From: Bacillus testis
Lineage (GTDB): Bacteria; Bacillota; Bacilli; Bacillales; DSM-1321
Assembly: GCF_001243895.1 (NCBI RefSeq)
Contig: NZ_LN851186.1
Location: 1,380,230-1,444,229, forward strand
Reading direction: 5' to 3'
Length of the DNA stretch: 64,000 bases
Part shown: positions 5,331-55,990 of the stretch, piece after piece
Numbering within the stretch: position 1 is the first letter of the stretch
Layout: every line of letters begins with the position of its first letter
Position numbers and translations under genes: made by a program
The notes under the pieces: generated by a model
The model's database searches: none
Told to the model about the DNA's origin: nothing
The model's input: only the letters and a program-made list of their open reading frames with translations

Positions 5331-5540
5331 GTGTGTAAGGCATGGCAACTATCTAGAGGGTGAAAGTCCGTTGTGGGGGGTACACATCAACCAACCACTA
5401 AGGAAGCGCAAGGTAATTATCGTGAGGTAGGGGCTGGAGAAAGCATGGAATAAAATCTTGGCTCGACGAACAGAAATCTGATACAAAGGCTCTATAAAGG
5501 GATAAGACTCCGTAACAAGTCAAAGTCCAAAAGATGTGCG
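5331..5540 (+). mobile_element. group IIC intron, truncated 5' domain I fragment
   Basis: The segment starts GTGTGTAAGGCATGG and continues with GAGGGTGAAAGTCC, CGCAAGG, a CATGGAAT segment, GAACAGAAATCTGATAC and AACAAGTCAAAGTCC. Order and spacing match, from memory, the start of domain I of group IIC introns such as that of Oceanobacillus iheyensis. It sits immediately downstream of a rho-independent terminator, the hallmark target of this class. Only about 210 nt remain. The rest of the ribozyme and the maturase ORF are missing, and the fragment runs into the tail of a phosphohexomutase gene. Confidence 0.8.
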
Positions 5541-5554
5541 TAACTTTATGGAGT

Positions 5555-5761
5555 AAATCAGGTGCTATCACACTGCCAAAGTCAAATGTGCTTAAGTTTT
5601 ATTGCGAGGACGGCTCTTGGTTCTGCTTAAGGCCGTCAGGAACAGAACCGAAAATCAAAATTTATTTTGCGGTTCGTGGTGACTCAAATGAAGCAAGTGA
5701 CCTTATGCTAAGTACATTGCAAGAAGCTGTGATACAAAAAGTCGATTCTCTTATAAAATAG
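5555..5761 (+). pseudogene. C-terminal tail of a second phosphohexomutase gene
   Basis: The frame reads [20 protein letters not shown], then [15 protein letters not shown], and aligns with the last 75 or so residues of the intact enzyme at 2322-4073 while differing at many positions. Only the phosphate-binding domain end remains. An in-frame ATG at 5534 lies in the intron fragment and has no ribosome-binding site. This is a paralogue remnant left by the deletion that also removed most of the intron. Confidence 0.85.
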
Positions 5762-40029: not shown

Positions 40030-40215
40030 ATGGACAATTCCATATTTTTTAGAGTGCCTTATGAAGAGGATAATAGGGAAACCGGTGAAAGTCCGGTGCA
40101 GCCCCCGCTACTGTAAGCATTATTTGGACGGCCCAAATTGCCACTGGAGAAATCCGGGAAGGCTTGGGCCGGTTGATGCGAAGCCAGGAGACCTGCTCTA
40201 AGAATAGTTGCTTGT
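40030..40215 (+). promoter_or_regulatory. cobalamin (B12) riboswitch aptamer
   Basis: Contains the B12-box landmarks in order: GGGAAACCGGTGAAAGTCC GG, GCAGCCCCCGCTACTGTAAGC, GCCACTGG, and the B12 box GATGCGAAGCCAGGAGACC followed by TGC. It is followed by an intrinsic terminator at 40273 and then btuFCD, so adenosylcobalamin binding should stop transcription early. Confidence 0.96.
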
Positions 40216-43774: not shown

Positions 43775-44096
43775 GTGATTTACATTTTTTTACTTTGGTG
43801 TTATATTTATTGAAAAATAGAAGAATGCGATGAAGAGAAAAAGTAAATTGCCGGTATTTTTTACAGAGAGCTTCGGTTGCTGAAAAGAAGCAAAAATCCA
43901 CAATTGAAAATGGTCTCAGAGCAGCTGCCTGAACGCCGGAAGGGCAAGACAAGAGTTGGTACTTGTTATAAAACCACAGTATACACATGGATTGTGTGTA
44001 CTTGCAGAGGCTGCCCGTGTGAACTGGCAGCGAAGTAAAGTGGAACCGCGAATAAACCTCGCCTTTATCTTGATAGGATAATGGCGGGGTTTTTTA
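43775..44096 (+). promoter_or_regulatory. T-box riboswitch, probable methionine type
   Basis: The T-box AAAGTGGAACCGCG is at 44037-44050. Stem I landmarks upstream: GCGATGAAGAG, AAAGTAA, CAGAGAGC, a GCTGAAAAG distal loop, and the specifier region TTGAAAATGGTC, where ATG at 43910-43912 is the best codon. The terminator stem is 44055-44063 with 44083-44091 plus Ts. The gene it once controlled is lost except for a tail. Confidence 0.9.
44055..44096 (+). terminator. T-box terminator
   Basis: AACCTCGCC pairs with GGCGGGGTT and is followed by TTTTTT; mutually exclusive with the antiterminator formed by the T-box sequence. Confidence 0.85.
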
Positions 44097-44118
44097 TGTT
44101 TAAATCAAAAGAAGGGAG

Positions 44119-44196
44119 TCATTATTTACGCGCATTGATGTAAGCGCCATTGAAGAAGAAGTGGAAAAACTGAATAAAGCAAGCTTTTTAAAATAA
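44119..44196 (+). pseudogene. C-terminal remnant, probably methionyl-tRNA synthetase
   Basis: The frame reads SLFTRIDVSAIEEEVEKLNK and ends ASFLK then TAA. LFTRID near the end of the anticodon-binding domain is typical of methionyl-tRNA synthetases (E. coli has LYNRID). AGAAGGGAG, a likely old ribosome-binding site, sits directly before it, so the deletion took nearly the whole gene between its start and tail. It agrees with an ATG specifier in the T-box upstream. Confidence 0.6.
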
Positions 44197-44252: not shown

Positions 44253-45356
44253 ATGAATGGCTTTTTTGCAACTTTGGATATACTCCGTTGGCAGCACAAA
44301 GAAATCCCTATGGAAAGGATCATGGAAATGGAACCATTAACAGTGGATATTGTGCAAATGAGGGCTTCCCTTTATGAAATCGGCATACGAACAGGAAGCC
44401 TGTTGAAAGGAAAAGCGGTCCTGGATGCATACAGTCAACTTCTCGAAGACAGTCTGGACGCAGAAGAAATAAAACATGTTTATAAAGCTTTTGCCCCTCA
44501 CCTTCTTGAAGAATTGGAAGGGCTGGCGGAAGGGACGGGTTTTTCAGTGGAAAAGTCGCTGAAATTATTCGGCGGATACGGATTGAAGAAACTTCCTATT
44601 ATGGGCTGTACAGCTTTTATGACGGCAAAAAGCTATGTCAGAAATTATGATTTCTCACCTGCCTTATATGACAGTCTGTTCAGTGTCATCCAACATAATA
44701 AAGGGTTTGCTTCAGCAGGTTATAATCAACAAGGGATTGGGCGCTTGGATGGAGTGAATGAGTGTGGATTGGCTGTGGGTCTTCATTTTGTCAGCTTTAA
44801 TGGATATAAAAAAGGACTTTCTGCTTGGAATACGGTACGGATTCTTTTGGAATGCTGCAAATCAGTTGAAGAAGCAATCCTACTTTTGCAGGAACTACCG
44901 CATGCTGCCTGCTACAATTTTTCATTAAGCGATCAGAAGGGTGCTGCTGTAGCTGAAACATGCCCGGAACAAATAGTAATTAGACAAGAAAGCAGGGAAC
45001 TTGGTTGTTTCAATATGTTTGAATCAGCCGAAATGAAACACCGAAATAAAGCCGGGAATGACAGCAGTCAATGCCGGAAAGAATTTGTCGAGACCTTCAA
45101 GAATAGTGGAATGTCAACTGAAGAATGTTTTCGGCTTTTTGCTGATCTACAAAAACCGCTCTTTTTCCAGGAATATACTGAACTATTCGGGACTTTGCAT
45201 ACGATTGCTTATGACAGGGAGACATCATGCTTTATGACCGCCCTGGCCCAAGCGGAGGACACGTTCATATTTTCGATGGATGATTGGAAAGGCGGTTGTG
45301 ATTTTTCGGAAGCCAGATTGGCCGGCATGATTGAAGAAAGAGAGAATACAACCTAA
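44253..45356 (+). CDS. C45-type (acyl-CoA:6-APA acyltransferase-like) Ntn hydrolase
   Basis: 367 residues from ATG 44253, with an ideal TTTGGAGGTAGATTA upstream; an ATG at 44226 lies before that site. The likely nucleophile is Cys119 in IMGCTAFM, which would become the N-terminus after autocleavage, and YVRNYDFSP follows. Related proteins hydrolyse or transfer N-acyl groups. It has no signal peptide. It now lies downstream of an orphan T-box, probably by deletion, and may be read through when that terminator is open. Confidence 0.78.
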   Translation: MNGFFATLDILRWQHKEIPMERIMEMEPLTVDIVQMRASLYEIGIRTGSLLKGKAVLDAYSQLLEDSLDAEEIKHVYKAFAPHLLEELEGLAEGTGFSVEKSLKLFGGYGLKKLPIMGCTAFMTAKSYVRNYDFSPALYDSLFSVIQHNKGFASAGYNQQGIGRLDGVNECGLAVGLHFVSFNGYKKGLSAWNTVRILLECCKSVEEAILLLQELPHAACYNFSLSDQKGAAVAETCPEQIVIRQESRELGCFNMFESAEMKHRNKAGNDSSQCRKEFVETFKNSGMSTEECFRLFADLQKPLFFQEYTELFGTLHTIAYDRETSCFMTALAQAEDTFIFSMDDWKGGCDFSEARLAGMIEERENTT

Positions 45357-45376
45357 AGCTGAAAGAAGTGAACGCG

Positions 45377-45838
45377 ATGGGGTACATTACGGAGCTGCGT
45401 AAAAAAGTGGGAAACATGCCGCTTATCATGGTTGGGGCTGCGGTTATTCTGGTTAGGGGGCCATTTATTCTTTTGCAGCTGCGGACAGATAATGAATGTT
45501 AGGGCTTGCCTTGCGGATCCATGGAGCCAGGGGAAGAGTTGGAACATACGGCAAAACGGGAGTTGAAAGAAGAGACAGGCTTGTCCGCTGTTCATTTAAA
45601 GTTGTTATCAGTGTTTTCCGGAAAGGATTTTTATTATAAATATCCGCACGGAGACGAAGTATACAATGTGATTGCAGCCTATATCTGCGATACCTATGAG
45701 GGTACCAAGCTCGGGCAAGCGGAGGAAGTGAAGGATTCACGTTTTTTTCATTTGAACAATCTGCCTAAAAGAATCAGCCCGCACGACAAGCCTATCCTTG
45801 AAGCATATAAAAAGGCGATTGGCATGATAGCAGATTAG
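45377..45838 (+). pseudogene. Nudix hydrolase interrupted by an amber codon
   Basis: From ATG 45377 the frame encodes 41 residues (ending RTDNEC), hits TAG at 45500-45502 and continues in the same frame with GLPCGSMEPGEELEHTAKRE and LKEETGL, a complete Nudix box (GX5EX7REXXEEXGX). The rest of the domain continues to 45838. In relatives the stop position is tryptophan (WGLPGG), so one G-to-A change explains it. The adjacent GG is also changed to CG. An internal TTG at 45506 has no ribosome-binding site, so the gene is probably dead. Confidence 0.8.
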
Positions 45839-55744: not shown

Positions 55745-55990
55745 TTTAGCACTTAAAAGCGTTTAAGTAAAAAAGGAAATTTGTTGGGCAGTTTTAGTAG
55801 TGTTCTTTCAGGCAGCAGACAGAGACAGGATGGGAGCTGAAAATCCTGGCGGGAAGAAACATGAATTACACCTGCATGTAAGAACAGCAAATGACAATGA
55901 AGTGGGCAAGCTTTTCTTGTCAAATAGGGTGGTACCGCGAAGTGATTTCGTCCCTATAAGAAGAAAGGCTTTTTGTGTTTTCATAAAATG
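55745..55990 (+). promoter_or_regulatory. T-box riboswitch, probable tyrosine type
   Basis: The T-box AGGGTGGTACCGCG is at 55926-55939. Upstream are AGTAGTG, CAGAGACAGG, a GGGAGCTGAAAATCC distal loop and the specifier region CATGAATTACACC, in which TAC followed by AC is the best codon. Sequences flanking the T-box (AGCTTTTCTT with AAGAAGAAAGGCT, then TTTTT) can form the terminator. It precedes an NhaC-family transporter. 55509-55744 holds no gene. Confidence 0.92.

Follow-up and report, generated by a model that had tools for sequence, protein, structure and literature searches.

An intact methionine T-box leader in Bacillus testis followed by the last codons of a methionyl-tRNA synthetase gene probably lost by deletion

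The locus lies in a 64,000-nt stretch of the Bacillus testis genome (the window; contig NZ_LN851186.1 of assembly GCF_001243895.1), in which a T-box leader is followed by an orphaned ribosome-binding site, a fragment of a methionyl-tRNA synthetase (MetRS) gene, and an acyltransferase gene, all on the + strand. When the window was scanned against Rfam (cmscan), model RF00230 was matched at 43821–44069 with 115.9 bits (gathering score 93; E = 6e-25) and over its full length (model positions 1–219; Stem I, Stem II/IIAB, Stem III, and antiterminator), bearing out the full T-box architecture claimed in an earlier sequence-only reading. Aligned to RF00230, the specifier loop has GAAA-AUG-G as the eight nucleotides of its 3′ side, so the specifier is AUG (methionine) at 43910–43912; the covariance model, named in that reading as a possible refutation of its ATG specifier, thus leaves the specifier where it had been put. 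The host carries tRNA-Met CAU genes, so this codon has a matching tRNA. Upstream, a likely sigma-A promoter (43779–43807; TTTACA, 17 nt, TATATT, with TG 5′ of the second hexamer) agrees with 10 of 12 consensus positions and is located suitably for the T-box start, in a scan that overall returned 2 sites against 1.7 in shuffled sequences. At the other end, an intrinsic terminator is predicted by folding at 44055–44095 (−20.4 kcal/mol and z = −5.8 for 44055–44097) and is followed by TTTTTT. Judged by its sequence, the element is a full transcriptional leader, specific for methionine and equipped with a strong terminator.

Several other elements surround it. The Met T-box comes after an operon headed by a cobalamin riboswitch (40035–40214, + strand, 120.4 bits) and encoding a substrate-binding protein, a FecCD permease, and an ATPase, likely a B12 transporter. 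A further T-box (55775–55958, + strand) scores 72 bits, which is below the gathering score, and precedes an NhaC-like transporter gene; its loop suggests UAC (Tyr), and its bulge reads UGGU. A Group II intron D1-D4-3 match (99.2 bits) is found at 5416–5589 (+ strand). Elsewhere in the genome (C9:1940893–1941172, − strand), a second Met T-box lies 5′ of a SAM hydrolase gene; its bulge, UGGC, is likewise unpaired with A73 of tRNA-Met, and the SAM-hydrolase leaders of four relatives have UGGU. A plasmid search returned Stem I matches alone.

Behind the terminator, the ribosome-binding site AGAAGGGAG (44110–44118) lies at the same place behind the terminator as its counterparts in relatives, where a synthetase gene follows. 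Similarity to the leaders ends after this site, and similarity to MetRS begins three bases on, at 44122, which puts the approximate deletion junction at 44119–44122. The frame after the ribosome-binding site reads ESLFTRIDVSAIEEEVEKLNKASFLK, with its stop codon at 44194–44196. Against a profile HMM built from the C-termini of the relatives' short MetRS proteins, here called metS2, LFTRIDVSAIEEEVEKLNKASF scores 33.2 bits (E = 4.4e-9). Nothing else in the window is a significant match to this profile: of 3,211 frames read from stop to stop, the runner-up has E = 2. The stretch 44122–44196 is therefore read as the C-terminal end of metS2 with its stop codon, the remaining codons (44122–44193) carrying an LFxRID-IEEE-L motif directly 5′ of the stop codon, and the old ribosome-binding site fused to a MetRS tail that had been noticed earlier holds up from 44122 onward. 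Because no in-frame ATG, GTG, or TTG precedes the match at 44122, the remnant is probably not translated. The housekeeping MetRS was considered as the source of the tail and rejected: that enzyme reads EPIFPRLDMEEEVAFIKEKM at this point and then continues for more than 100 residues with a further domain. MetRS thus stands as the identity of the lost synthetase, narrowed to the short second-copy enzyme.

In relatives, this second, short MetRS (∼545 residues) occurs beside a housekeeping MetRS of ∼660 residues; of 397 genomes taken from the order, 98 give a match at 1e-170 or better. An Rfam scan of 20 metS2 loci placed an RF00230 T-box that exceeds the gathering score on the same strand as the synthetase in every one. 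Within the host's own family, the same holds for four of five metS2 loci, and in the fifth (L044) the core motif of a T-box lies at a greater distance upstream. Of 33 metS2 leaders, 32 contain the specifier motif GAA(N)AATGG, with AUG at the position that it has in the window. The host genome encodes a single MetRS, of 660 residues; the catalytic and anticodon-binding domains of metS2 are absent from both the locus and the rest of the genome, and metS2 is therefore taken to have been lost from this host.

Leader, AUG specifier, terminator, and tail are all in place, and no other metS2 exists in the genome. We consider it highly probable that the leader is the intact Met T-box of a former metS2 gene and that a single deletion took out the body of this gene, from the start codon to about codon 515 of 545. 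Such a deletion would have joined the leader, just 3′ of the ribosome-binding site, to the last ∼24 metS2 codons. With breakpoints set after the ribosome-binding site and before the final LF.RID motif, and with relatives as the reference, we estimate that ∼515 codons, or ∼1.5 kb, were lost. The earlier proposal of a deletion that took the synthetase and spared the sensor is well supported, since the tail corresponds to the C-terminus of a MetRS whose gene, in relatives, follows a homologous Met T-box, and the host lacks that MetRS. Because the genus is represented by one genome, the deletion is deduced from more distant relatives. The loss of metS2 would be tolerated because the housekeeping MetRS remains.

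As for the state of the leader, the T-box core AAAGTGGAACCGCG (44037–44050) contains A44044, the base that contacts the tRNA discriminator. The host tRNA-Met genes have A73; the UGG of the bulge can pair with CCA, but the N position cannot, so that the discriminator part of the UGGN-NCCA pairing, reported for the majority of cases in TBDB (PMC7778990), does not form here, and the response of the leader to tRNA-Met could therefore be weak. All 33 metS2 leaders first compared have U here, and A44044 was accordingly considered as a sign of decay. This idea was dropped: three Planomicrobium leaders 5′ of an intact metS2, which are also the best matches to the window leader (74% over 282 nt), have an identical core, so A44044 is better regarded as a lineage variant than as a scar, and discriminator pairing is not a strict feature. 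Among 61 columns conserved at ≥95% in a comparison set of 79 leaders with an intact synthetase, the window leader departs at three (median of the set 0, 90th percentile 6). Two departures, 44039 and 44064, are partners in antiterminator helix A1 (G-C to A-U), and the third is A44044; all three also occur in Planomicrobium leaders with an intact synthetase. By these comparisons, the leader appears free of decay.

The first intact gene downstream (44253–45356, + strand) encodes, as proposed from the sequence earlier, a C45-family autoproteolytic acyltransferase (PF03417, E = 1e-46; NCBIfam C45_proenzyme NF040521, E = 4.4e-60, 203.7 bits against a cut-off of 85). Its homologues (41–48% identity) begin near window position 44328 rather than 44253. 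The ∼25 N-terminal residues encoded by 44253–44327 (+ strand), preceded by a good ribosome-binding site, have no counterpart in the homologues compared; perhaps translation begins at 44328, or perhaps foreign sequence was fused to the N-terminus. Behind the acyltransferase gene lies a NUDIX hydrolase gene (45368–45838, + strand) with an in-frame TAG at 45500–45502; the part past the stop matches PF00293 (E = 1e-14), and the gene is probably a pseudogene. Relatives with the acyltransferase directly behind the T-box, which the sequence-only reading had named as counter-evidence, did not turn up, as none of 19 loci with acyltransferase homologues has a T-box within 1.5-kb flanks. Nor do metS2 and the acyltransferase lie close together on one contig in any of the listed genomes, and a regular partnership between the two genes was rejected on these grounds. 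A contig scan with the acyltransferase as the query found no relative.

In the proposed scheme, which builds on the established T-box mechanism (reviewed in PMC7583486), the leader would still sense uncharged tRNA-Met. With charged Met-tRNA, transcription would stop at 44055–44095; with uncharged tRNA-Met, the anticodon would contact AUG and the tRNA 3′ end the bulge UGG, the antiterminator would be stabilized, and RNA polymerase would pass into the untranslated remnant and on into the C45 acyltransferase gene. Read-through transcripts would reach this gene because a scan found no terminator-like site between the remnant and the gene. Control of the acyltransferase by Met-tRNA is thus plausible from the layout of the locus; a promoter of its own is possible.

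Losses of metS2 behind a kept T-box are also seen elsewhere in the order. A metS2-leader query found matches in 117 of the same 397 genomes, and where a matching genome had no good metS2 match, the loci were extracted and classified. Most of these T-boxes precede a SAM hydrolase gene, often together with an ECF-S gene; the remainder are broken metS2 loci, which brings the number of other genomes that keep the T-box before a broken metS2 to at least 11. The gene is frameshifted or split in G402, G395, G154, G117, G103, and G212, carries a ∼4-kb insertion in G294, has an internal deletion in G310, has lost its 3′ part in G354 and G397, and is gone completely in G378. Single frameshifts are weaker cases than deletions, since draft genomes may contain frameshifts that arose in assembly. 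At the G294 locus (L298), the split metS2 shows a short repeat of codons 113–115 of the kind that a mobile element leaves behind. G397 keeps 96 metS2 codons, which lead into a gene for a GNAT acetyltransferase; its congener G378 has the T-box (114.2 bits) directly 5′ of the same GNAT gene. These independent disruptions count in favor of the deletion reading. That a dispensable synthetase copy is deleted and the T-box then passes to the next gene and is kept as its working control, with the C45 acyltransferase here and GNAT elsewhere, is a tentative idea that we think rather doubtful.

Two other readings of the locus concern what the leader does today. It might be a pure relic, dead or dying and acting on no gene; we give this substantial but minority weight. 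No functional methionine-metabolism gene follows the leader, A44044 faces A73 at the discriminator contact, and the in-frame stop of the NUDIX gene farther downstream speaks of decay in the neighborhood. However, all other elements are kept, including the antiterminator pair 44039–44064, in which both partners have changed, and the three Planomicrobium genomes have the A44044 core before an intact metS2. Conversely, the acyltransferase might have become a member of the Met T-box regulon, with selection maintaining the deletion because induction at low Met-tRNA charging is useful, which we hold to be unlikely. The leader has not decayed, but a recent deletion would equally leave it intact; the sole promoter-like site on the + strand between 43600 and 44400 lies before the T-box, and the scan showed no further terminator up to the gene, but a −10-like TGCTAAGAT just 5′ of the gene could be a promoter of its own. 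The GNAT case in another genus offers a parallel, whereas the acyltransferase has no known methionine link and its homologues are not under T-box control.

The remaining alternatives question the parts of the locus themselves. If the 26-codon tail were a chance frame, the T-box would have arrived in another way, for instance by duplication of the SAM-hydrolase T-box, the genome having a second Met T-box of that kind. This is already contradicted by the tail match (E = 4.4e-9 against E = 2 for the next frame) and by leader similarity, which is 74% over 282 nt to the Planomicrobium leaders but 76% over only 105 nt between the host's two leaders; we regard it as extremely improbable. Hardly more credible is a non-Met specifier, in which a shifted frame would read GGU (Gly), two bases past AUG, and the U73 of the host tRNA-Gly would fit A44044; the covariance-model alignment and the loop position give AUG, and MetRS genes follow the homologous leaders that share this core. 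Loss of the metS2 body by deletion behind an intact Met T-box thus remains our preferred reading.

Among known systems, a Met T-box is listed for Bacillus cereus metS, and for the Met T-box of Staphylococcus aureus metICFE, tRNA binding has been shown, with initiator tRNA preferred (PMC3771891). The present leader resembles the Bacillales Met T-boxes of MetRS genes in RNA class, AUG specifier, and terminator design, but here the synthetase is cut to its last ∼24 codons. It shares the specifier and a similar Stem I with the Met T-boxes of SAM hydrolase genes, with or without ECF-S, found in the host (L010/L174) and many relatives; these have an intact methionine-related target and no synthetase tail behind them. 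Closest in layout are the G378 and G397 loci (L288, L290), where an intact Met T-box (114–115 bits) has lost its metS2 and an unrelated acyl/acetyltransferase gene comes next, although genus, breakpoints, and downstream gene differ. The class I lysyl-tRNA synthetase gene (lysK) of Bacillus cereus is likewise a second-copy synthetase with a T box (PMC2916919), but there the synthetase is present and the amino acid is another.

The leader RNA belongs to a known class; what is uncommon is the history of the locus, an RNA regulator that has outlived its gene, with intermediates in relatives that range from frameshift through insertion and partial deletion to full loss. A preceding Met T-box alone is consequently no ground for giving a gene a methionine function. 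If read-through into the acyltransferase gene is tRNA-Met dependent, riboswitch regulons would gain unrelated members by simple deletion. What is of most interest is that the synthetase has been lost repeatedly while its sensor was kept.
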